Of a stretch of 40,317 nt of DNA, positions 17,393-39,603 are shown one piece after another. Made by a program: the position numbers and the translations under genes. The number at the start of each line of letters is the position of its first letter. Position 1 is the stretch's first letter. The stretch lies in assembly GCA_025363775.1 (NCBI GenBank), contig JANYLG010000080.1, forward strand, positions 1 to 40,317, written 5' to 3'. The notes below the pieces were generated by a model. That model had not been told where the DNA came from. It ran no database searches and saw only the letters and a list, made by a program, of their open reading frames with translations. The DNA is from Acidobacteriota bacterium. Its GTDB lineage: Bacteria; Acidobacteriota; Vicinamibacteria; Vicinamibacterales; Fen-181.

Positions 17393-19696
17393 ATGCATCC
17401 GTCTGAAGAGACCACCTTCCTGTCACCCTGGTGGCGGCATTCGGTGATCCTCGTGATGATCGCGGGCTTCGCCGTGCTGTCCTACATCACCGTCCGGACC
17501 TACACCGACGCCCCGCCCATTCCCAACCGTGTCGAGGACACCTCGGGCCGCACGCTGTTCACGTCGGCCGACATCCTGCGCGGGCAGGAGGTGTTCCTGA
17601 AATACGGCCTGATGGAACACGGAACGCTCTGGGGCCATGGGGCGTACCTCGGCCCGGACTACAGCGCCGACACGGTGCACGAGGCGGTCGAGGTGGGGCG
17701 TGACACGCTCGCACAGACGCGGTACGGGCGACCGTACGCCGCCCTCGAGGCTGGAGCCGCCGCCGAGATCGCCGACGCCGTGCGTCGCACGCTGAAGGAG
17801 AATCGGTACGATCCGGCAACCGGGACACTCCGCTTCACGGAGATCGAAGCGGCCGCGTTCGCCGCGTCCCGGCAGCACTGGGGCGACTTCTTCTCGGGTC
17901 CAACGGCGGCCGCCGGTTTACCGCTGAAGTACATCCGCGAGCGCAGCGAGCTCGACGACCTGGCCACGTACTTCACCTGGGCCGCCTGGGCGGCTGTCGC
18001 CAATCGCCCGGGGAAGGACTACTCCTACACCAACAACTGGCCCTACGATCCGGCCGCGGGGAACACGCCCAGCGGCCCGACGTACCTGTGGAGTGCGTTG
18101 AGCCTTATCAGCTTGCTTGCCGGACTCGGCACCGTCCTCTTCTTGTTCGGGCGTTTTGATTTTCTTGGCTGGCACCAGTCGTCCACCACGGCGCACTCGC
18201 ACGACAGTCGCGTGTTGGCGTGGACATGGACCCCGAGTCAACGCGCGACGGCCTGGTACTTCGCCGTCGTCGCGGCACTCTTCCTGGCGCAGACCCTTCT
18301 CGGCGGAGTGATTGCGCATTACCGCGTCGAGCCCGGCGGGTTCTACGGCGTCGACCTGTCGCGCCTGCTTCCCTACACCCTGGCCCGCACGTGGCACCTG
18401 CAGCTCGCGATCTTCTGGATCGCCACTGCCTGGGTCGCGGGCGGACTCCTGCTGGCGCCGCTCGTCGGCGGCGCGGAACCCCGCGGGCAGCGTACTGGCG
18501 TCGTCGTGCTGCTCGTTGCCCTGGCTGTCGTCGTGTTCGGCAGCCTGTTCGGGGAGTATCTGGGCATCAACGGCGCCTTGGGTGAGGCATGGTTCTGGCT
18601 GGGCCACCAGGGATCCGAGTACCTGGACCTGGGCCGGTTCTGGCAGATCCTGCTCGCGGCCAGTCTCGTGTTCTGGCTGGTGCTGTTGTACAGGGCGTTG
18701 CGGCCGGTCATGCGGCGCGGCAACCGGTCGGAGCTTGGCGCGTTGTTCCTGTACGCCGCCGCGGCGATCCCGATCTTCTATCTGCCGGCGCTCTTTTTCG
18801 GCCCGCACACGAACTTCGCCGTCATCGACAACTGGCGTTTCTGGATCATCCATCTGTGGGTCGAGGGCTTCTTCGAACTGTTCGCGACCGTCCTCGTGGC
18901 GGTGATGTTCCATCTCCTGGGGCTCGTGACGGCGAAGACGGCTACCCGCGTCGTGTACCTCGACGCGATTCTCTACCTGGGCGGGGGCATCCTCGGCACC
19001 GGCCACCACTGGTATTTCACGGGTCAGGGGACGCTGAACATGGGCGTGGCCGCCTGCTTCTCGGCCCTGGAGGTCGTGCCCCTCACCCTCCTGACGCTCG
19101 ATGCCTGGGACTTCATCCGCCTGAGAAGCCGTCGGTGCGAGGAGTGCGGGGAGGCACTGTCGAATCGCTACCGCTGGACGGTCAACTTCCTCATGGCTGT
19201 CGGCGTCTGGAACTTCGTCGGAGCTGGGATATTCGGCTTCCTGATCAATCTCCCCATCGTGTCGTATTTCGAGGTCGGCACCGTGTTGACCCCCAACCAC
19301 GGGCACGCCGCGCTGTTCGGCGTATTCGGCATGCTGGCGCTCGCGGTGGTCGTCTTCGGGCTCCGCGCGCTGGCATCGGAGGCCGCGTGGGCTCGCGTGG
19401 AACGCCTCATCACACTCGGCTTCTGGGGGCTCAATGTCGGCCTCGCGCTGATGATCGTCCTGGACCTCTTTCCGGCCGGCGTGCTGCAGCTGTGGGACGC
19501 GATCGAGAACGGATACTGGCACGCCCGGCAACCGGCATTTACGATGAGCGGGTGGTTCCATGCGCTCGAGTGGGTTCGCCTGGTTGGGGACGGCGTGTTC
19601 CTGGTGGCAGGCGTGGTGCCGCTGGTCACCGCGACACTCATGGTGGTCCTCGCGCCGGGCGCGCATCGATCGGAGGAGCGGACACTCCCGTTGTGA
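17393..19696 (+). CDS. norZ: quinol-dependent nitric oxide reductase (qNOR)
   Basis: 767 aa, inner membrane. Single-subunit enzyme reducing 2 NO to N2O with electrons from quinol. It has an N-terminal helix (residues 16-36), a periplasmic cytochrome c-like domain without a CxxCH heme site (about 40-225; RTLFTSADILRGQEVF, WGHGAYLGPDY), then a 12-13 helix heme-copper-oxidase-like core. Metal ligands: His335 (RTWHLQ) and His638 for the hemes, and His487 (HLWVEGFFE), His538 and His539 (GTGHHWY) for the FeB site with Glu491 and Glu495 nearby; His636 lies in NHGH. A CEECG pair (Cys582, Cys585) sits in a loop where I expect none. ATG with GGGAG 9 nt upstream. Role: NO detoxification or denitrification. 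Confidence 0.94.
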   Translation: MHPSEETTFLSPWWRHSVILVMIAGFAVLSYITVRTYTDAPPIPNRVEDTSGRTLFTSADILRGQEVFLKYGLMEHGTLWGHGAYLGPDYSADTVHEAVEVGRDTLAQTRYGRPYAALEAGAAAEIADAVRRTLKENRYDPATGTLRFTEIEAAAFAASRQHWGDFFSGPTAAAGLPLKYIRERSELDDLATYFTWAAWAAVANRPGKDYSYTNNWPYDPAAGNTPSGPTYLWSALSLISLLAGLGTVLFLFGRFDFLGWHQSSTTAHSHDSRVLAWTWTPSQRATAWYFAVVAALFLAQTLLGGVIAHYRVEPGGFYGVDLSRLLPYTLARTWHLQLAIFWIATAWVAGGLLLAPLVGGAEPRGQRTGVVVLLVALAVVVFGSLFGEYLGINGALGEAWFWLGHQGSEYLDLGRFWQILLAASLVFWLVLLYRALRPVMRRGNRSELGALFLYAAAAIPIFYLPALFFGPHTNFAVIDNWRFWIIHLWVEGFFELFATVLVAVMFHLLGLVTAKTATRVVYLDAILYLGGGILGTGHHWYFTGQGTLNMGVAACFSALEVVPLTLLTLDAWDFIRLRSRRCEECGEALSNRYRWTVNFLMAVGVWNFVGAGIFGFLINLPIVSYFEVGTVLTPNHGHAALFGVFGMLALAVVVFGLRALASEAAWARVERLITLGFWGLNVGLALMIVLDLFPAGVLQLWDAIENGYWHARQPAFTMSGWFHALEWVRLVGDGVFLVAGVVPLVTATLMVVLAPGAHRSEERTLPL

Positions 19697-19905: not shown

Positions 19906-20838
19906 CTAGTGCCGCATGCCCGACGGTTTCTTGCCCATAGCGTCGAGACCCGCCTTCAAGCCGGCGGCCACGCGTTCCGGCGTGTCGTGGGCCCAGAAAT
20001 GCATAAAGTACAGGTCCGGACTCCCGTCGATCATGTGGTTGTGAAGGGCGGTCACGTCGATGCCGTGCGCGCGGAGCGCGGAAATCACGGGGTTGACCTC
20101 GTCACCCATCAGCACGAAGTCGCCGGTCGATGCGACCTTTCCGGGCTCCGCCGCCTGGATGTTTACCGACGTGGCCATGCCCATCGCCGGAGGAAGCGTC
20201 ACGCCCATCATCGTGATCGGCTCCGGCCGCGGCTTGGAGAGCCCCAGGACTCCACCCTTCACGGAGCCCTTCAGCCCAAGCGTTTGCTGGATCTGGTCGG
20301 CTCCGGGCAGGTCCTGGTTGGCAACAACCACTGCCGAATCGGTGAGCGGCGTGGCGGTCAGCGCGAGCGCCGCCTCGAGCGATGAGGCCAGGCGGGCTGC
20401 GGGGCCACGGCCCCAGAAATGGACGTACATGAGGCGCGGAGTCTCACCGAGCAGATGGTTGTGGATGGCGGTCACCTCGATGTGTTCCGCCCGCAACTTC
20501 CCGACGACAGGGTTCACCTCGGTCTCGGTGAGCGCCAAGTCCCCGTGGGTGACGGCCTCGGCATCGACCGCTTTGAAGGCCGCCCAGCCGGTCAGCGCCA
20601 GGCCCGGCTTGATCGCGACGCCGTCCACCGTGACGTGGAGGTCTGTTCGCGGGAAAGAGACCTTGTAGACGTCGCCGCTCAACTGGCCTGCCTTGCCGAT
20701 CGCCCGGTCGATCGCCGCGGTGTCGAGTGAAGCCGCCTGCGCGCCGCTGCTCCGGGGTGCCGCGACGACCAACGCCGCGGCGGCCAGCAGCACGGACGCC
20801 GCCGAAAGAGCCATCTGAAGTGGGGGCTTGCCTGTCAT
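19906..20838 (-). CDS. secreted DUF1259 (LppY/LpqO-like) protein, two internal repeats
   Basis: 310 aa. ATG with AAGGA 9 nt upstream and a signal peptide (MALSAASVLLAAAALVVAAP, cleavage near GAQA). The mature part contains two homologous DUF1259 units: one ends in EVTAIHNHLLGETPRLMYVH and FWGRG, the other in DVTALHNHMIDGSPDLYFMH and FWAHD. The paired HNH and HFW motifs suggest a metal or small-ligand site, but no function is established. It starts 3 nt after the chrB stop, with its Shine-Dalgarno inside the chrB end, so it is the second gene of that operon. DUF1259 next to chrB recurs in chromate-type clusters, as far as I know the family context. Confidence 0.88.
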   Translation of the reverse strand: MTGKPPLQMALSAASVLLAAAALVVAAPRSSGAQAASLDTAAIDRAIGKAGQLSGDVYKVSFPRTDLHVTVDGVAIKPGLALTGWAAFKAVDAEAVTHGDLALTETEVNPVVGKLRAEHIEVTAIHNHLLGETPRLMYVHFWGRGPAARLASSLEAALALTATPLTDSAVVVANQDLPGADQIQQTLGLKGSVKGGVLGLSKPRPEPITMMGVTLPPAMGMATSVNIQAAEPGKVASTGDFVLMGDEVNPVISALRAHGIDVTALHNHMIDGSPDLYFMHFWAHDTPERVAAGLKAGLDAMGKKPSGMRH

Positions 20839-20841
20839 ATG

Positions 20842-21948
20842 CTATCGTCCTTTCTGGGTGCGCCTGGCCGGGCGCCGAATCTGTTTTTTCACACCGGCCG
20901 ACGCCAGCACGCTGGCGGATGACCGATAGAGGGCCTCGAAGACGACGATGCCGTGTTCGAGTAGTTCCTCGTCTCGTGGAAACACCTGCCGCATGCCATC
21001 AATCAGCCGACCCACCGTGGCGGTCTCCGGTAGGTTGTACCGGCTCTCCTTGAGATCCAGGTCGTGTACGAGGCGACCGAGTTGGGCGACCGCCTGGTCG
21101 GTGATGCCGAATCGCTCGGACAAGACCTCAAAGGTGCACCGATCGCCGTGGTGGCTGAACTCGACGCCGTACATGTCGAAGGGGACGGCCTTCGACGAGG
21201 CGGGTGGCCTGTCACCAAATAGAAAGCGGGCCGCAGGATCGATGAATCGCCGGATGAGCCAGGCCGATCCCGATCGATCGATCCCGGGGCGTGGGCGAGT
21301 CAGCCAGATCTTTCCGCGATAATTCTCCGACCGAAGGACAGTGCCTGGTCCGGATGGTTCACGGGACTCGGTCACAGGTCCGACAACCAGGCGCTCGAGC
21401 ACGACAATCGCCTCGTGAGCCTCCTCTCGGCCACTCGCTCCGAAGAAGTCGGTCGCAGCCACCTGCGCAAACCTGTCGCGCACCTGCCGCACGGCCCGCT
21501 GCAGGCGACGCAGATCGGTCCCCCTCATGGCGCCCGCCTGGGCCGAGTTCCGCGTCAGAACCCGCACGTCCTCTCCGATGGCCTCGAAGAGACGCTCGCG
21601 GTCCGCGCGAAACGCTGCGACGATGTCGTCGTGCGCGAGCGAGTCGATCGTGTCGGCGGCAAACACGGTGGCCTCACCCCTGTTCGCGAGGATCTCCGCC
21701 TTCATCCACTCGAAGTCCTCGCGCGCCTGCGGTGAGTTGGGCAGGGCGTAGACGGCGTTCCGTATGGCCACCGCCCCGAGCTGCTGGAGCCGGCGCCAGG
21801 TCTGTACGCGCGCCTTCGACGGGCTCGTCGGGAGCTGGTGAACAAGGAGCAACCACTGGCCGGCCTTCCCGGCGCCGCGGGCTGACGACCCGCCGCCTTT
21901 CCCGCTCGAGCTGGAACGACGCCTGGCATGCGATGTATCATCGACCAC
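20842..21948 (-). CDS. chrB: ChrB, chromate-resistance regulator/protein (both domains)
   Basis: 368 aa. Residues 1-30 are a Ser/Gly/Lys-rich tail. The ChrB N-terminal winged-helix region follows (WLLLVHQLPTSPSKARVQTW, RRLQQLGAVAIRNAVYALPN), a typical DNA-binding part of chromate-inducible ChrB. The C-terminal ChrB domain has the IDRSGSAWLIRRFIDPAARF motif, FSHHGDRCTFEVLSERF and DLKESRY. GTG start, placed 5 nt after a predicted -10, so the message may be leaderless. It is divergent from a gene encoding only the C-terminal domain. ChrB usually regulates the chromate exporter ChrA; here no ChrA is present and an MFS protein may take that place. Confidence 0.9.
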   Translation of the reverse strand: MVDDTSHARRRSSSSGKGGGSSARGAGKAGQWLLLVHQLPTSPSKARVQTWRRLQQLGAVAIRNAVYALPNSPQAREDFEWMKAEILANRGEATVFAADTIDSLAHDDIVAAFRADRERLFEAIGEDVRVLTRNSAQAGAMRGTDLRRLQRAVRQVRDRFAQVAATDFFGASGREEAHEAIVVLERLVVGPVTESREPSGPGTVLRSENYRGKIWLTRPRPGIDRSGSAWLIRRFIDPAARFLFGDRPPASSKAVPFDMYGVEFSHHGDRCTFEVLSERFGITDQAVAQLGRLVHDLDLKESRYNLPETATVGRLIDGMRQVFPRDEELLEHGIVVFEALYRSSASVLASAGVKKQIRRPARRTQKGR

Positions 21949-21953
21949 ATACC

Positions 21954-21983
21954 ATTAGTAACAAACATTACGGTGCGCGTCAA
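21954..21983 (-). promoter_or_regulatory. predicted chrB promoter
   Basis: On the minus strand TTGACG (21978-21983), an 18-bp spacer and ACTAAT (21954-21959, 4 of 6). The stretch is the most AT-rich of the 127-bp divergent region. The GTG start lies 5 nt beyond the -10, suggesting a leaderless transcript. Confidence 0.45.
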
Positions 21984-22075
21984 TCGAGAGCGGCCACCGC
22001 CGATCTGGCGCCCCAAGACAGGAGAGGCCGGGCCGGCTGAACGCGGAGGCCGCCAGCACACGTGGAGGCGACACC

Positions 22076-22513
22076 ATGAAGTGGATCACCCGATCGGATG
22101 TGCGCGTGGATCGCGTGGCGTGTCCCTGGCTGATCAGACGATTCATCGATCCGGAGGCGGAGTTCCTCTTCGTCCCCGAATCCGACCTGCTGGCAAGGGC
22201 CCGTGAAACCGGCGCAACACCATTCGATGCGCCCCGGCTCGCTGAGGTCAGGCTGAACCATCGCGGCGACCGGTGCACCTTCGAGGCCTTCCTGGAGGAC
22301 TACCACTTGACCGACCCCGCACTCGAGCGCCTCAGCCTGATTGTCCGGGCGGCCGACATCAAGGGACAGGAGCACGTCGCGCTGGAAGGCCTCGGGCTTC
22401 GGGCGGTCGCCGTGGGGTTCGCGCTGACCGGCGTCACGGACAGCGAGCGGCTTGCCGGCCAGGAGCCCATGTACGACGCGCTCTACGCCTATGCGGCGCG
22501 CAGCGGTTCATGA
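22076..22513 (+). CDS. stand-alone ChrB C-terminal domain protein
   Basis: 145 aa. It corresponds only to the C-terminal half of ChrB: VRVDRVACPWLIRRFIDPEA, then LNHRGDRCTFEAFLEDY and AADIKGQE. It has no winged-helix region, so it cannot be the DNA-binding regulator. Cys16 in the ACPWLIRR motif replaces the Ser of the full-length ChrB encoded divergently (GSAWLIRR), so this copy may be the catalytic or metal-binding version. ATG with GGAGG 7 nt upstream. Its stop overlaps the MFS start by ATGA, so the two proteins are made together. Confidence 0.9.
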   Translation: MKWITRSDVRVDRVACPWLIRRFIDPEAEFLFVPESDLLARARETGATPFDAPRLAEVRLNHRGDRCTFEAFLEDYHLTDPALERLSLIVRAADIKGQEHVALEGLGLRAVAVGFALTGVTDSERLAGQEPMYDALYAYAARSGS

Positions 22514-23778
22514 CCCGGCCCTCGCTTGGACGCACGGCCACGCTGATGTTCGGGGCCGCGTTCCTGCGGTCGCTCGGCGTCGGCCTGACCGGCGTCCTGC
22601 TGGGGCTGTACCTCTCGCACCTCCAGTTCTCGCCCGCAGAGGTCGGGGCGATGGTCGCGACCGGGCTCGCAGGCGTGGTCTGCGCCCAGTCCCTCGTAGC
22701 AATCGCCGGCGATCGCTTCGGCCGGCGCCGATCGCTTGTGACCCTGGCGCTTCTCACGGGAGCAGGCGGATTGGGCCTGGGGCTGGTCCCAACCGGCGCG
22801 ATGGTGTTCGTGGTGGCGTTTGTCGGCATGGTGAACGGGATGGGGCGGGATCGCGGAGCCGCGTCCGCGCTCGAACAGGCCATCCTCCCGGGCACCGTCC
22901 CTGACGACCAGCGCACCTGGCGGCTCGCGCAGTACAACGTGGTCCTCGACACCGGCCACGCGCTTGGTGCGCTGGGCGCGGTCTTGCCTCTGTTGCTCCG
23001 ACGGACCATCGACATCGGCCCGCTCGGCGCGTATCGCGTGACGTTTGTCGTCTACGGTGCACTGGGTTTCGTCGGCGCACTCCTGTACCTGGCCCTTCCA
23101 GCCGACATCGAGGTCGCGCGCGTGCCTTCCCCATCGGCCCCACCCGACGCGAGACTCGCGCCTGAATCGCGAGCGAGGATCACGAAACTCGCCGCCCTGC
23201 TGGGCCTCGACAGCCTTGGCGGGGGCTTCCTGAGTGGCTCCCTGCTCGCCTACTGGTTCTTCCGGAGGTACGGCCTGGCAGAGGACTCGCTGGCGGTCCT
23301 CTTCTTCGTCAGCCGTCTGCTGAACGCGGCGTCACATCTGGCCGCCGCGTGGATGGCGCGCCGAATCGGCCTGCTGAACACCATGGTCTTCACGCACATC
23401 CCGTCGAGCCTCTCGTTGCTGGCCGTTCCCTTCGCCCCGTCCCTGGGCTGGGCGTTGGCGTTGTTCCTGGTGCGCGAATCGCTGGCGGAGATGGACGTCC
23501 CGACGCGACAGTCGTACGTGGCCGCGATGGTGCGGCCCGAGGAACGGACGCGGGCGAGCGGAATCACGAACCTCGCCCGGAACGTCGGGTGGGCCGCCGG
23601 CCCGTCGCTCGCCGGCCTGTCGATGCAGCACGTGCTGCTCGCCTCTCCCCTGTTCCTCGGGGCGGCGATCAAGATTGTCTACGACGTCCTGCTCTACGCG
23701 TCGTTCCGGCACGTCGCGCCGCCCGAGGAACGGGCGGCACCTCTGATCCGCTCGAGGCGAGTCCCGAAGGCGTATTGA
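22510..23778 (+). CDS. MFS transporter of the chromate-type cluster
   Basis: 422 aa, 12 predicted helices. It shows MFS signatures: LQFSPAEVGAMVATGLAG in the first helices, the loop-2 motif GDRFGRRRSL, and a second-half counterpart with AWMARRIGLLN. The ATG start is fixed by the 4-nt overlap with the ChrB-domain gene. Position suggests it exports what the ChrB proteins respond to (chromate or a related oxyanion or oxidised product), in place of ChrA; that is inference. Its stop TGA shares an A with an ATG (TGATG) that opens only an 18-codon frame, which I do not count as a gene. Confidence 0.9.
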   Translation: MTRPSLGRTATLMFGAAFLRSLGVGLTGVLLGLYLSHLQFSPAEVGAMVATGLAGVVCAQSLVAIAGDRFGRRRSLVTLALLTGAGGLGLGLVPTGAMVFVVAFVGMVNGMGRDRGAASALEQAILPGTVPDDQRTWRLAQYNVVLDTGHALGALGAVLPLLLRRTIDIGPLGAYRVTFVVYGALGFVGALLYLALPADIEVARVPSPSAPPDARLAPESRARITKLAALLGLDSLGGGFLSGSLLAYWFFRRYGLAEDSLAVLFFVSRLLNAASHLAAAWMARRIGLLNTMVFTHIPSSLSLLAVPFAPSLGWALALFLVRESLAEMDVPTRQSYVAAMVRPEERTRASGITNLARNVGWAAGPSLAGLSMQHVLLASPLFLGAAIKIVYDVLLYASFRHVAPPEERAAPLIRSRRVPKAY

Positions 23779-23940: not shown

Positions 23941-24200
23941 ATGTGGTCACACGCGAGGGACACGGCATCGGATTTCGACGAACAGCCGCAAGACCCCTAC
24001 GCGCCCAGTGAGGAATCGGGCGATTCCCGCTACGATGAGGGGCACCGCTTCGTCGCCAGCGCGTTGTTCAACCTGCCGATCGGGGACGAAGACGACCTGC
24101 CCCCCGGAAGCGCCGCGCCAGGCGCCTTCCATCGACCGCGACCCTGGACCTGCGCCTGCTCAAATACTTCAAGGTGAAACCGCACGGGAAGCTCGATCTG
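23941..24200 (+). pseudogene. TonB-dependent receptor (Oar-like) remnant
   Basis: Two pieces in different frames. Piece 1 (23941 to about 24118) reads MWSHARDTASDFDEQPQDPY, then YDEGHRFVASALFNLPIGDE and DDLPPG, a pattern typical of the last third of acidobacterial carboxypeptidase-regulatory/TonB receptor barrels. Piece 2 (24141-24200) reads TLDLRLLKYFKVKPHGKLDL, the segment that normally precedes the final strands of the same family. Between them a frameshift and a loss of probably more than 100 codons are needed. No plug domain or signal peptide exists here, so it is a dead fragment. Confidence 0.7.
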
Positions 24201-24275
24201 GGGACGATTCTCGTGGTCGAGGACGAGGCCAAGGTGGCTCAGGCTCTGCAGGAAGGGCGGCACGCCAAAGGGTGA
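24201..24275 (+). pseudogene. response-regulator N-terminus fragment
   Basis: Directly in frame with the receptor remnant the sequence reads TILVVEDEAKVAQALQEG and ends 6 codons later. This is the first strand and acidic pocket of an OmpR/CusR-type receiver domain (VVEDE); the rest of the gene is missing. The in-frame join of a barrel fragment to a receiver start marks a deletion junction near 24200. Confidence 0.65.
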
Positions 24276-24342: not shown

Positions 24343-25014
24343 ATGAAGCGTGCAATCTCGTTCGTCATCGTATTTGTCGCGACCGCGGTCGTGGGGGCGC
24401 AGACCCAGACGGCCAAGACATTCACGTTCGATCAGGACACGGTCGGCGCGCCGCCGCACGGATTCTCGACAGCGCTCACAGGCCAGGGAAAGCCAGGCGT
24501 GTGGGTCGTCAGGAAGGACGCGCAGTCGCCGGACCGCGGCAACGTCCTCGCGCAAACGGACGCCGACCCGACGGACTCTCGGTTTCCCGTGTGCATCCTC
24601 GACGACCTGTCCGTCAAGGACCTCGACCTCAGCGTCCTGATCAAGCCTGTCACGGGTCGCGGGGACCAGGCGGCCGGCCTCGTCTGGCGGTATCAGGACG
24701 CCAACAACTACTACATCGTCCGCGCCAACGCCCTGGAGCACAATGTCGTGCTCTACAAGGTGCAGAATGGTCGCCGGACCGACTTGCCGCTGAGGGGGGC
24801 GGGCCGCACGTACGGCAAGAAGGTCACGGTGCCGTCCGGACAGTGGAGCACGCTGCGCGTAACAGCCGCCGGACCGCTGTTCACCGTCTATTTCAATGGC
24901 GAGAAGCTGTACGAGGTCGAGGACGCGACATTCCCTGGCGCCGGCAAGGTGGGCGTCTGGACGAAGGCGGACTCGGTCACGTATTTCGACAACCTGAGCA
25001 TCAGTCCCAAGTGA
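24343..25014 (+). CDS. secreted DUF1080/LamG-like protein
   Basis: 223 aa. ATG with GGAGG 7 nt upstream; signal peptide MKRAISFVIVFVATAVVGA. The mature protein is one jelly-roll-like domain: FTFDQDTVGAPPHGF, LSVLIKPVTGRGDQAAGLVW, RYQDANNYYIVRANALEHNV, LFTVYFNGEKLYEVED, and VGVWTKADSVTYFDNLSI. This is the concanavalin-like fold of DUF1080/3-keto-disaccharide-hydrolase-type and LamG proteins; the NYYxVR and GVWTKADSVTYFDNL motifs recur in stand-alone periplasmic members. No catalytic residues can be named. It stands alone between two decayed regions and looks intact. Confidence 0.85.
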   Translation: MKRAISFVIVFVATAVVGAQTQTAKTFTFDQDTVGAPPHGFSTALTGQGKPGVWVVRKDAQSPDRGNVLAQTDADPTDSRFPVCILDDLSVKDLDLSVLIKPVTGRGDQAAGLVWRYQDANNYYIVRANALEHNVVLYKVQNGRRTDLPLRGAGRTYGKKVTVPSGQWSTLRVTAAGPLFTVYFNGEKLYEVEDATFPGAGKVGVWTKADSVTYFDNLSISPK

Positions 25015-25271: not shown

Positions 25272-27206
25272 CTACGGCTGGTCCCTTCCCAGGGCCCGCG
25301 ATGTCCGGCGGCGGGTCTCCAACAGCAGCAACCGCGCAGAGTTGAGTACGACGGCGACGGACCCGACGTTGTGCGCGAGCGCGCCAAGAATCGGCGTCAG
25401 GATTCCGACCGACGACAGCCCAAGCATCGCGGCGTTGAAGAGGAGACCGAACAGGAACAGGTTCTGGTTGATGGTGCGGGTCGTCGCCCTGGAGAGACGG
25501 AAGAGAAACGGCAGCCCGGACAGGTCGTTCCCCATGAGGACGACCGCCGCTGTCTCGAGCGCCACCGTGCTGTGGCGCGAACCGAGGCTCACGCCGACCG
25601 TCGCCACCGAGAGGGCAGGGCCGTCATTCGCGCCGTCTCCCACGTAGCACAGGCGCCGACCCTCCCGCTCCAGATTTCGCACTCGTTCGTATTTTTGGTC
25701 GGGGAGCATGTCCGCGGACACCCGATCGGGCTCCAACCCGACGCTCTCGGCCACGGCCAGTGCCACGGACCGAGCGTCACCGGTCAACATCTGAATGTCG
25801 CGGAGTCCCTCGGCCCGGAGCTGCTGAATCACTGCTCGCGCTTCCGGACGTAACTCGTCCTCGATCGAAAAGACGCCCTTCACAACGGTGCCGCACGCCA
25901 CGAACACGATGCAGAGCCCCTGCTGTCGCAACCGCTCGGCTTGCGGCTCGAGCTCACCGAGGCTGACAGCGTGCCGGGTCATGAACCTGGCATTCCCGAT
26001 ACGCCAGGCCTGATTCGCCTGATCGGTCCGCTCGGCGACCCCCAGCCCCGCTTCCCGCTGAATGGCAACGCCTTCGGCAACGGTGACACCCGCCGCTGCC
26101 GCCCGCCGCTGGATCGCCCGCGCCAACGGGTGATCGGCAGCGACCTCGAGGCGCGCTGCGGCGGCGAGCAGTTCGTCGCTCGATACGCCCGCGGCCGGAA
26201 CGACGTCCACCACCCGGCACTCGCCCTTGGTCAGCGTTCCTGTCTTGTCGAAGGCCAGCGCGGTGACAGCCGCACACCCCTCCACGTAGCGGCCCCCCTT
26301 GATCAGCAGCCCCTCTCGGGCTGCCCGACTGAGGGCTGCGACGATGGCGGTCGGCGTGGCAAGGACGAACGCGCAGGGGCACCCGACGATGAGCATCGTC
26401 ACGGCCCGGTATGGATCACCGGTGACGGCCCAGACGGCCCCGGCGAGCAACAGGACGCCAGGAGTGAACCACCGCGCGTACGACCCCGCGGCGCGCAGGA
26501 TGGGCGCGCGATGTCGTTCGGCATCGCGGATGAGCTGCAGCACCTTGCCGTGTGCGGTCTGATCGCCCGTTCGCTCCACCCGGACCTCGAGGGAACCACT
26601 GTGATTGATCGTCCCGCTCGAGACGGCATCTCCGGATGCCTTGTCCACTGGGGCGCTCTCTCCGGTCAGCAGCGATTCGTCGACCTGGCTCTCGCCGACC
26701 TCCACGGTCCCGTCCGCCGCGATGACGTCGCCGGGCCTGACGAGAATCCGCACGCCGACCGCGAGATCGCTCACCAGGACCTGCCGCACGCTTCCGTCGC
26801 CTTCCAGAACGAGCGCATGCCGCGGGCTGGCCGCGAATAGCGCCTCGAGATGCCTCCTCGCACGGGCGCTCACCAACTCCTCGATCAGCGAGCCGAGCAC
26901 CATGATGAACGCCACGATGGCGGCCGATGTCCACTCGCCGAGGACGAGAGACCCGATGATCGCCAGACTGACCAGTTCATCCACGTTCGACTGCAGCCGG
27001 GCGATCCCACGCGCCGCTCTCCAGACGATCGGAACGCCGGTCAGACACAAGGCCGCCAGCGACAGCACGCCAACGGCGGCGGGCGGGAGGCCCGTGTACT
27101 CCCCCACGACGGCCGTCACCACCAGCACTCCGGCCGCTGCCGTCGTGGCCATCTGCCGAAGCCCCATAGCTGCAACGGCCCCGGCGCCTGCGAAACGTCC
27201 GAGCAC
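25272..27206 (-). CDS. P1B-type heavy-metal-transporting ATPase
   Basis: 644 aa. Inner-membrane metal exporter: E1-E2 actuator (LTGES), a CPC metal site at residues 276-278 (VGCPCAFVLATPTAI), the phosphorylation site DKTGT at Asp320, an HP motif (ADHPLARA), and GDGANDGPAL. The last helices read NQNLFLFGLLFNAAM and LAHNVGSVAVVLNSARLL; HNxxS in the last helix differs from the Cu (MxxS) and Zn/Cd (DxG) consensus and resembles the CtpC-like branch, so the metal is uncertain. GTG at 27206 is chosen for the AAGGGGA just upstream; further upstream the frame is not protein-like. No N-terminal HMA or His-rich metal-binding domain is present. Confidence 0.88.
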   Translation of the reverse strand: MLGRFAGAGAVAAMGLRQMATTAAAGVLVVTAVVGEYTGLPPAAVGVLSLAALCLTGVPIVWRAARGIARLQSNVDELVSLAIIGSLVLGEWTSAAIVAFIMVLGSLIEELVSARARRHLEALFAASPRHALVLEGDGSVRQVLVSDLAVGVRILVRPGDVIAADGTVEVGESQVDESLLTGESAPVDKASGDAVSSGTINHSGSLEVRVERTGDQTAHGKVLQLIRDAERHRAPILRAAGSYARWFTPGVLLLAGAVWAVTGDPYRAVTMLIVGCPCAFVLATPTAIVAALSRAAREGLLIKGGRYVEGCAAVTALAFDKTGTLTKGECRVVDVVPAAGVSSDELLAAAARLEVAADHPLARAIQRRAAAAGVTVAEGVAIQREAGLGVAERTDQANQAWRIGNARFMTRHAVSLGELEPQAERLRQQGLCIVFVACGTVVKGVFSIEDELRPEARAVIQQLRAEGLRDIQMLTGDARSVALAVAESVGLEPDRVSADMLPDQKYERVRNLEREGRRLCYVGDGANDGPALSVATVGVSLGSRHSTVALETAAVVLMGNDLSGLPFLFRLSRATTRTINQNLFLFGLLFNAAMLGLSSVGILTPILGALAHNVGSVAVVLNSARLLLLETRRRTSRALGRDQP

Positions 27207-27431
27207 GTGTCCCCTTTCGGACAGCCGTCCTGAATGCGAAGCGTCCGCCCCGACGACGCGGATCAGGCGACCCGCGAGCGTCCCGAACGACGGTTTCCGG
27301 TCCGCTTGGTGTGTACTAAACGTGAGGCGTTCCTGCCGACCGGGGAGGCCCTGGCGCGCCCTGCCGTCCAAGTCGAACCCGTTCTCGCTCCCCGTCGCCA
27401 GAGGAGACTGCCCCGTGTGGATCGTACGCCT

Positions 27432-27881
27432 CGCCGCGCAGCAGCGCATCGCTCAACGCGTCGAGCTGCCGCCCGGCTACTACTTGAGTTGGGGCGGACA
27501 GTTCGAGAACCAGCAACAGGCGATGCGGCGACTCATGATTATTACTCGCGTCGTGGTGGGCTTGATCTTCCTGCTGCTGCTCTTGACCTTCGATTCGGTC
27601 TGGCTGGCGGGCCTCGTGCTCATCAACCTGCCCTTCGCCATGGTCGGCGGCGTCTTCGCGTTGTTCCTCTCCGGCCTCTACCTGTCGGTCCCCGCCTCGG
27701 TGGGCTTCATCGTCCTGTTCGGCGTGGCGGTCTTGAACGGCCTCGTCCTGATCTCGTACATCTCGGATCTTCGAGACAACGGCGCCAGCGTCACTGAGGC
27801 GGTACGGACCGGCTGCGAGGCGCGGCTTCGCCCGGTGCTGATGACCGCCAGCATCTCCATTCTCAGCTTGATACCAGGGTC
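27432..27881 (+). pseudogene. CzcA/CusA heavy-metal RND pump fragment
   Basis: About 150 codons of a roughly 1040-aa protein. It reads RVELPPGYYLSWGGQFENQQ, LLLLLTFDSVWLAGLVLINL, PASVGFIVLFGVAVLNGLVL and LRPVLMTASISILSLIP, the C-terminal-half helices of CzcA/CusA pumps. Upstream of 27430 the homology stops abruptly; downstream it is cut after LSLIP, where the family continues with a GPGSE-type loop, and the frame ends in unrelated residues. Both breakpoints lie next to the P1B ATPase and to the left tRNA-derived repeat, so a metal-resistance locus was probably cut by rearrangement here. Confidence 0.8.
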
Positions 27882-38289: not shown

Positions 38290-39603
38290 CTAATGTTTCG
38301 TGGGATTTAGGCTGGCGGAGAGAGAGGGATTCGAACCCTCGGTAGAGTTTCCCCTACACACGCTTTCCAAGCGTGCGCCTTCAACCACTCGGCCATCTCT
38401 CCGTTCGAGTGGAATCAACAGTTTACCGGAGGGCGGCGAGCCCTGCAAAAGTAAAATGTGACGTGACTGTGACGTGAGGTCTTCGGCGACCTCCACGATC
38501 GTTTCGATTTCGGCCTCATTTGCCGGTTTGCCGTTGCCGTCTTCGTCGGCGCTGCTTCGGCGCAGGTTGTCGAGTGCATCGAGCGCCTGGCGCTTCGCGT
38601 CGATCCGGATGTGCGAGTAGTGTTCCAGCATCCGTCGCGACAGGTGACCGCTGATCGATTCGAGCACGTGGTCGGCCACGCCCATCTCGGCCAGCTCGGT
38701 GATGACCGTGTTCCGCAGGTCGTGGAACCGCAGCCCCTGCAGCCCCGCCTCGTCACGCAACGCGCGCCAGGCCGTGTCCCACTTCAACATCGGCTTAGTA
38801 GCGTCGTAGCGGCCCCACTGGCAGGCGGGCCAGAGATAGTGTTCGGGCTCCGTGTGCCCAAGCAGATCCGCGCGCTCGAACATTCGTGCCGCAGCCTCGA
38901 TAGCGGATGCGTTGAGCGGGATGACCCGGTGGCTGGTCTCGTTCTTGCTCCGCCGGACGTGCAGGAGCTTCTTGACGAGATCGACGTCGCATCGCCGAAG
39001 GTGCTTCACCTCCACAGGCCGCATCGACGTGTTGGCGGCGACGATCGCGGCGCAGTAGACGTGCTCCCATTCCGGATTCGACGCGGCTGCATAGAAGAGC
39101 CGCTTCCGTTCCTCTGCTGTCAAGGCGCGTCCGACTGGATGCTGTCGTTCCGGGAGATTGTGGACGTGGTCTGCGAGCGCCCGCCACCGGCCGCAAGACT
39201 TGAGCACGCGCGACAGCACACCGACGTCCATGTTGATCGTGCGGTTCGCGATGCCGGCCTCGTGACGCGTGCGCTGGAACGCCGCAATCTCCGTCGCCGT
39301 GATCGCCGAGAGTGGCACGTCACCGAAGTGCTTCTTGACGAGGCTCAGCCGTTCTTCTTCGAGCTCGATCGTCCGAGGTGAGCACCGGATCTGTTTGGCA
39401 GCCAAATAGGCGTCGATCGCATCCGAGAGTCGCTTCGGCCCTTGCTCGTCGGCAGCCAGCCGGCCGTGTCCAGCTTCTTCTACGAGCTCGCGTTCTCGTC
39501 GCGTCGCCGTTCGCAGGTTCGTCGTGCCCAGCCGCTTCCGGTATCGACGGCCAGCAACGGTGAAGTCTGTCCAGTACTGACGACCGCGTTTCCAGAGACT
39601 CAT
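38290..39603 (-). CDS. int: tyrosine recombinase / site-specific integrase
   Basis: 437 aa. N-terminal AP2-like and SAM-like domains ([40 protein letters not shown]), then a catalytic domain with the complete set Arg195 (MRPVEV), Lys220, His294 and Arg297 (FHDLRNT), His320 (ISGHLS) and nucleophile Tyr329 (LEHYSHI). From about residue 401 the frame runs through the entire tRNA-Ser(GGA) gene (tail ends [14 protein letters not shown]), so the last 37 residues are tRNA-encoded. The ATG overlaps the stop of the upstream HTH gene (ATGA); GGGAG lies 8 nt upstream. It is the only integrase in the window and lies on the 5' side of the tRNA, outside both cassettes. Confidence 0.93.
38313..38402 (-). 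tRNA. tRNA-Ser (anticodon GGA)
   Basis: 90 nt with encoded CCA. Acceptor stem GGAGAGA pairs with TCTCTCC, discriminator G, then CCA at 38313-38315. Anticodon stem CACGC/GCGTG with loop TTGGAAA gives GGA. The long class II variable arm and GGTTCGAATCC T-arm are present. Its terminal 17 bp (38313-38329, core E) recur at 28052 and 33719. The gene lies wholly within the 3' part of the integrase frame on the same strand. Confidence 0.96.
38457..38478. repeat. 11-bp tandem direct repeat inside int, next to the tRNA
   Basis: TGTGACGTGAC followed by TGTGACGTGAG, 55 bp upstream of the tRNA 5' end. One-turn spacing near an attachment site fits paired binding sites for an integrase or excisionase; it lies within the int coding tail. 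Confidence 0.5.

Follow-up and report, generated by a model that had tools for sequence, protein, structure and literature searches.

The subject of this analysis is a cluster of chr-type genes between positions 19906 and 23778 of a 40,317-nucleotide stretch of DNA from an Acidobacteriota bacterium (contig JANYLG010000080.1 of assembly GCA_025363775.1), here called the window. By their sequences the genes are chrB, chrL/chrY, chrF, a relative of chrP and a relative of cep, and among them there is no gene for ChrA, the protein to which chromate resistance is usually tied. We give about even chances to the reading that the cluster is a variant chr determinant, directed against chromate-type oxyanion stress, in which control would be exerted by ChrB and export by an MFS transporter of the ChrP type, without ChrA. 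The gene content, an overlap of the chrF and MFS genes, the homologies, an operator-like repeat and the recurrence of the ChrF-MFS pair are read from the sequence itself.

Gene content of the cluster and its known relatives

The cluster consists of two divergent units, separated by 127 nt. On the minus strand the full-length regulator ChrB (20842..21948, 368 residues, GTG start) combines a ChrB_N domain (PF20229, 3.5e-10, 40.4 bits at a cut-off of 23) with a ChrB_C domain (PF09828, 2.7e-40, 138.2 bits at a cut-off of 25), and 3 nt after its stop begins, on the same strand, the gene of a chrL/chrY-like exported DUF1259 protein of the LppY/LpqO family (19906..20838, 310 residues), which matches PF07485 in two stretches (7.1e-85, 281 bits). 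On the plus strand the gene of a lone ChrB_C protein (22076..22513, 145 residues, PF09828 6.9e-43) overlaps by 4 nt, in ATGA, with that of a ChrP-like MFS transporter (22510..23778, 422 residues, ATG at 22510, MFS_1 9.1e-34). Open reading frames and Pfam matches confirm what an earlier note on this DNA had read from the letters, namely the four genes, their strands and the 3-nt or overlapping junctions within each unit, and the motifs ACPWLIRR in the lone and GSAWLIRR in the full-length protein are as it described them. The absence of chrA is also borne out, in that the exporter gene expected of a chr operon is missing and no PF02417 match occurs in the cluster. The description of ChrB as split was wrong: a full ChrB stands beside a paralogous ChrF, the latter recognised, from Pfam and from an arrangement as in plasmid pMOL28, as a stand-alone ChrB_C domain in a chr cluster.

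Beyond the earlier note there is an operator-like repeat between the divergent units and, 3' of the MFS gene, a gene for a ConA-like exported protein (24343..25014, plus strand, 223 residues, PF06439 1.5e-7). The latter has a signal-like start, judged by eye, and homologues 57, 44 and 43% identical that belong to clusters annotated as chr in Sphingopyxis, Pedobacter and Methylobacterium; this 'cep'-like gene probably belongs to the cluster. Since the domain matches are highly significant and the pairing recurs elsewhere, the cluster cannot be ascribed to chance. In NCBIfam three of the four cluster proteins find no match, while the MFS protein matches generic efflux families far under their cut-offs; the DUF1259 protein meets chance-level matches only among PDB sequences, and a literature search thin on subscription papers joined DUF1259 to chromate in one table only.

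To place the cluster, consider first pMOL28 of C. metallidurans CH34, where the order is chrB, chrA, superoxide dismutase (SOD), chrE, a ChrB_C protein of 140 residues, two small genes, MFS, DUF1259 and YncE. The last five are named chrO, chrN, chrP (the MFS gene), chrY and chrZ in the excerpted text of the CH34 genome paper, which reports them as chromate-induced with 'no data given' (PMC2864759). From the gene order follows that the lone ChrB_C protein there is chrF1. The window shares with pMOL28 ChrB, the stand-alone ChrB_C (46.8% identical to the one encoded after chrE), the MFS protein and the DUF1259 protein (29% identical), but pMOL28 has chrA, SOD and rhodanese genes and reads in one direction throughout, whereas the cluster in the window is divergent and without chrA. 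The determinant of Arthrobacter sp. FB24 likewise encodes ChrB C-terminal proteins that stand alone, and its chrL is of the DUF1259 type (LppY/LpqO), but it also has chrA and a single-domain CHR gene; a reading of its chrK as an MFS gene was rejected, since chrK is described as encoding a WD40-repeat protein (PMC2751784, in the part available). The same source states that chromate resistance drops noticeably when chrJ, chrK and chrL are deleted, and that all eight genes of the determinant respond to chromate (PMC2751784). Cupriavidus neocaledonicus, with chrB2A2CF-cep-chrL, shares the ConA-like exported 'cep' and chrL with the window but has chrA2, and in the sections seen of the paper no chrP (PMC7060636). 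The nearest ChrF of all (77% identical) is found in locus L011, from a metagenome-assembled genome (MAG) of the Acidobacteria, where it is followed by an MFS protein 50% identical over the part present, but where chrA lies directly upstream of chrF. The three ChrF proteins closest to that of the window carry acidobacterial names, in agreement with an acidobacterial host. For ChrF itself, the sources as excerpted speak of a protein of uncertain function (PMC3817168) or a putative repressor (PMC7060636).

The ChrF-MFS pair with and without ChrA

When contigs of other genomes were scanned with the lone ChrB_C protein, 41 loci were obtained, and in 13 of these a full MFS of the present family lies within 3 kb of ChrB_C, to which come four in which the contig ends within the MFS gene (two of them, L016 and L031, are too short to be assigned to the family and, at 24 and 30 bits, score in the range of generic MFS proteins). 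Two of these 17 loci (L011 and L050) also carry ChrA in the fetched stretch, and L045 carries a ChrA fragment. Of 42 loci in a sample of the phylum two have the pair, L130 together with ChrA, and of 40 in a Chloroflexota sample eight have it, L219 together with ChrA; the 40 Chloroflexota neighbourhoods come from 86 positive genomes and are the first in list order after G011. Pooled, 23 of 27 MFS-adjacent loci are without ChrA in the fetched DNA, four of these with a contig-cut MFS, at a limit of 50 bits in locus scoring, under which L139 falls, and one of 80 bits for ChrA, by which the L045 fragment (59 bits; 41 bits in the genome-level search) counts as without ChrA. Since many stretches are short, absence of ChrA nearby is weak evidence. 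At the level of genomes, 8 of 17 that bear the pair have no CHR match at all, these being genomes picked for the pair and mostly MAGs. Judged by the names of the genomes, the pair occurs in Acidobacteriota, Chloroflexota, Nitrospirota (Manganitrophaceae), Zixibacteria, Armatimonadota, Planctomycetota, Rokubacteria and a thaumarchaeote (L042). Among archaeal MAGs ChrB_C was seen in L030, L038, L042 and L046, followed by a full family MFS in L042 and by a contig-cut one in L038.

The claim of the earlier note that the MFS protein replaces ChrA thus stands in part. There is a recurrent ChrF-MFS unit, mostly without ChrA nearby and in nearly half of the genomes just mentioned without any CHR match; as a rule, replacement fails on L011 and on CH34, where chrA and chrP share one operon. 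Strict replacement is disfavoured because L011 has ChrA, ChrF and MFS in one row.

These two loci also lead to a different explanation, which we consider unlikely, namely that the window holds an ordinary chr operon whose chrA was lost or separated, by a recent deletion or by lying in an unassembled part of the genome, the MFS protein being an accessory only. The genome (3.79 Mb) is 83.5% complete, and the excerpted CH34 paper notes that chrP is missing from several chr loci (PMC2864759), both of which would fit. Yet the comparison with related genomes speaks against it. In the whole genome PF02417 finds one match, a single-domain one on another contig, while both PF09828 matches are in the window. 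The gene adjoining this single-domain CHR gene is presumably a citrate synthase, and the same couple is found in G002 and G004, that is, in all three family genomes read. Exactly one CHR match, single-domain or cut, is present in five of the seven genomes of the family and none in two. Six genomes of the same order with ChrB_C, 92-100% complete, show no CHR match in five cases and a partial one in the sixth (in one of the six, G138, it is the ChrB_C match that is partial). Over the phylum sample ChrB_C is present in 40 of 396 genomes, and 29 of the 39 others than our own have a CHR match; among Chloroflexota genomes with ChrB_C, 15 of 41 have none. On resistance without chrA, the literature search described above gave Frankia alone as pertinent, where the source, in the part available, reports the presence of ChrA to be uncorrelated with resistance.

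What the transporter might carry is approached through its family. The window protein is 39.2% identical to the pMOL28 MFS protein, chrP by gene order, over 87% of the query (3e-29), and on this comparison it belongs to the ChrP family. In a tree CH34 groups with MFS proteins of Sinorhizobium and Rhizobium (100/99) and the window protein lies in another branch of 11 rows (100/100), the deep forks being weak. All 17 of 17 aligned rows keep one Arg within the first hydrophobic segment, which is compatible with an anion and says no more.

Several results weigh against the reading that we prefer. Members of the MFS family (E <=1e-40) occur in 60 of the 396 genomes of the phylum sample, and of 20 neighbourhoods, taken by hand from the 60 positive genomes with loci already known as chr-linked excluded, 17 are free of the chr genes that were sought; the remaining three have ChrA next door, SOD, and weak ABC-permease matches, respectively. 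By eye, no common theme is seen among the neighbours of the solitary MFS genes, genes having been called at ten of the 20 loci. In the tree already mentioned, of 39 members and a sample biased toward loci found through ChrB_C, the chr label needs 10 changes, nine of them forced by well-supported branches, compared with 12.9 in shuffles, so that the label is barely more clustered than by shuffling (36 of 500 as low). The closest solved sequences are those of NorA (3e-10), an exporter, which fits export as such, but NorA exports organic drugs and is not known to export oxyanions. Further, seven ChrB loci from the other five genomes of the same order have DUF1259 nearby in four cases and this MFS in none. 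To these points come the nearest relative, L011, with its chrA, and the incomplete state of the genome itself.

Some of them favour an explanation of another kind, in which the MFS protein is a NorA-like pump for an organic drug or metabolite, ChrB and ChrF sense a signal other than chromate, and the chr names mislead. The generic character of the distant NCBIfam matches and the 27 of 40 Chloroflexota ChrB_C loci with neither ChrA nor this MFS close by point the same way. From the 10 label changes on the tree follows, however, that pumps of this family have more than once become linked with chr genes or lost that link; the chrP of CH34 is reported as chromate-induced (PMC2864759, as excerpted), and the invariant Arg would fit an anion. 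On balance we regard an organic substrate as doubtful, and keep to the ChrA-independent chr determinant.

Two observations on neighbouring transporters may be added. In the Chloroflexota loci L202, L231 and L236 the lone ChrB_C gene has a membrane protein of another kind as its neighbour; two of these proteins resemble MFS weakly (26 and 38 bits) and the third does so by eye, from which follows that pairing with a transporter may extend beyond a single family. An ABC transporter of the solute-binding-protein type is found repeatedly in chr clusters (L006, L007, L020, L029, L041, L051, L105, L109, L115, L118 and L123), two of which (L118 and L123) are same-order ChrB loci without ChrA.

The promoter and the ChrB_C domain

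Between the divergent units, and separated by 9 bp from the start codon of chrB, lies the inverted repeat GTAACAAACATTAC (21958..21971; GTAATGTTTGTTAC), a possible ChrB site. The pattern GTAAYN4RTTAC, chosen only after inspection of these upstream sequences, is present in the 200 bp that precede the start of the ChrB_N domain for 6 of 43 ChrB genes, two of the six (L109 and L115) representing one genus; in approximate dinucleotide shuffles the mean number is 0.01 and the largest 1. Its 15-base core AGTAACAANCATTAC has a single occurrence in the genome at up to 2 mismatches, the looser pattern being scored upstream of ChrB genes and not genome-wide; a reversed-pattern control of the core gives 5 matches in G000, so that weak matches mean nothing. 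The 14-bp layout of the window repeat matches part of the O. tritici repeat, which contains GTAGTAACATCTAC in a GTA-N8-TAC layout (PMC3817168, as excerpted). The same excerpt adds a point against a simple operator: mutation of that repeat spoiled regulation, yet ChrB bound the mutated promoter in an electrophoretic mobility shift assay (PMC3817168), and for this reason the site that ChrB binds may be other than the repeat.

Around the repeat, between the divergent units of the window, some 50 bp (21932..21983, overlapping the 5' end of chrB) are shared as a block with G004, from the same genus, as seen in a two-sequence alignment. On one side of the block G004 has what by eye is a degenerate chrF relic, with a deletion and a frame change, of which a profile search picks up the first 22 profile positions only, and beyond it a Cep homologue; on the other side the contig ends within an MFS gene, which belongs to a different branch. 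A regulator-kinase fragment lies between the chrF relic and Cep in G004, and in the window the stretch at 24190-24260 (ILVVEDEAKVAQALQEG), between the MFS and Cep-like genes, resembles by eye a piece of a response-regulator start.

The earlier note had set Cys of the lone form against Ser of the full-length form, and the position does correlate with architecture when compared across the family. Lone ChrB_C proteins have Cys in 46, Ser in 3 and Thr in 3 of 52 cases, and full-length ChrB proteins Ser in 32, Cys in 8 and Thr in 2 of 42; the following residue is Pro in 46 of 52 lone and 0 of 42 full-length proteins. In these counts identical domains were merged, five ChrB_C matches without a readable motif were skipped, the Chloroflexota sample and L096 (the same DNA as L011) were excluded, and of the three lone 'Ser' rows two are uncertain, since L050 is cut by a contig end and L118 has ChrB_N in another frame. 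In the Chloroflexota sample ChrB_C domains beside or overlapping a ChrB_N frame also carry Cys, with Pro in L219, L228 and L238. Cys is a good but non-exclusive mark of lone ChrB_C, and Cys-Pro is nearly, not wholly, exclusive to it. The proposal that Cys marks an enzyme and Ser a sensor is too strong, with Cys in 8 of 42 full-length regulators and in ChrB1 of CH34 (ACAW).

Two variants of the architecture were also noted. A Pedobacter plasmid protein (L007:4594-5454) joins an ACPW-type ChrB_C to a C-terminal part that by eye is AraC-like. In Chloroflexota ChrB_N and ChrB_C often lie in separate neighbouring or overlapping frames (loci L199, L212, L214, L225 and L237), from which follows that a truly split ChrB exists there.

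In O. tritici ChrB, R180, R187 and H229 are needed for chromate induction, while C213 could be mutated without effect, according to the portion of the source available. By spacing, the three residues map to Arg6, Arg13 and His62 of the lone protein, while C213 is by this spacing a cysteine other than that of the lone-form motif. Arg, Arg and His are invariant at the mapped positions in 10 of 10 rows of an alignment to which the O. tritici protein itself does not belong. As ChrF keeps all three, it may simply bind the ligand of ChrB.

For the fold of ChrB_C the evidence comes from models. The lone protein is modelled with a mean pLDDT of 96.7, and Foldseek alone gave a best E of 0.2, with folds other than DHH. 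When the Foldseek candidates were given a second look with VIA, 6mtz_A came first (Z 11.2, 139 of 145 residues, 3.4 A), followed by PAP phosphatase 8a8k (Z 7.4), PggH (7d62, 6.8) and NrN (6.8), by RecJ and Cdc45 entries at Z 5-6 and, later, by family II pyrophosphatases; several of these Z values are in a range that the tool calls common, and 6mtz carries the title 'uncharacterized' only. We take all of them to belong to one DHH superfamily. In a separate model of the Ser-form full ChrB (mean pLDDT 81) the C-domain again matches PAP phosphatase 8a8k (Z 8.0, 125 residues), and the N-domain matches Cas2-like structures and PaaX (Z 7.8).

Homology to DHH proteins at the level of sequence was tried and rejected: hhalign against 11 NrnA-like proteins gives E 0.57, and control profiles score alike (DUF1259 0.72, Cep 0.33). 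The by-eye likeness of WITRERPKVDRIAC to DHH motif I was rejected as well, as an ungapped profile test does not pick motif I. There is no DHH motif among the invariant columns of the ChrB_C alignment, and ChrB_C has no match up to E 1 among PDB sequences, whether searched as a single sequence or as a profile. A conserved rhodanese domain in ChrB was reported from BLAST by Branco and Morais (PMC3817168, as excerpted), and the 2013 paper on ChrB could draw on no structure. A rhodanese fold was set aside here with none among the 50 VIA rows shown, a result that does not exclude it. In the same literature search, thin on subscription papers, nothing was found that joins ChrB, chromate and DHH. The DHH resemblance is a fold-level lead toward an anion pocket; chromate would fit well into a pocket of phosphoesterase type in which Arg takes the place of the metal ligands.

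Proposed mechanism, surroundings and meaning

Taken together, the preferred reading of a ChrA-independent chr determinant would work as follows. ChrB, consisting of a PaaX-like DNA-binding domain and an anion-sensing ChrB_C domain, would act at the inverted repeat between the divergent units and would respond when chromate or a similar oxyanion is bound through the conserved Arg, Arg and His. It would then drive chrB-chrL on one side and chrF-chrP, possibly with cep, on the other. ChrP, an MFS protein of exporter type, would remove the oxyanion or a product of it, and ChrF, which has the fold of the sensor with Cys-Pro for Ser-Ala, would bind or process the ligand on its way to the pump. The ligand, the action of ChrB at the repeat, export by the MFS protein and the roles of ChrF, ChrL and Cep are here what we infer from the genes and their relatives.

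As to the surroundings, a gene for a nitric oxide reductase subunit B-like protein (17393-19696, with NorB cytochrome c-like and COX1 domains) is convergent with the DUF1259 gene, and a P-type ATPase gene (25272-27449, minus strand) is convergent with the Cep-like gene. Further away, a phage-type integrase frame (38290-39603) overlaps a tRNA-Ser (gga) gene (38313-38402) at its 3' end. Such an overlap is a usual mark of a genomic island.

Within the searches made, the recurrence of a chrF-chrP type pair apart from chrA in several phyla and the lead on the ChrB_C fold appear to be new. The widest joint reading, which we put forward as tentative and on the whole improbable, is that ChrB_C has a phosphoesterase fold of the DHH type which has degenerated and now serves to bind oxyanions, and that ChrF-ChrP is a ChrA-independent module for oxyanion export in several bacterial phyla and in archaea, with ChrF delivering the anion to the MFS pump or modifying it. 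If the pair works without ChrA, searches for chrA would miss resistance of this kind in Chloroflexota, Acidobacteriota and some archaea. With a system of two genes the functions of chrF and chrP would become testable, and a fold for ChrB_C would suggest in structural terms how chromate is sensed by ChrB.

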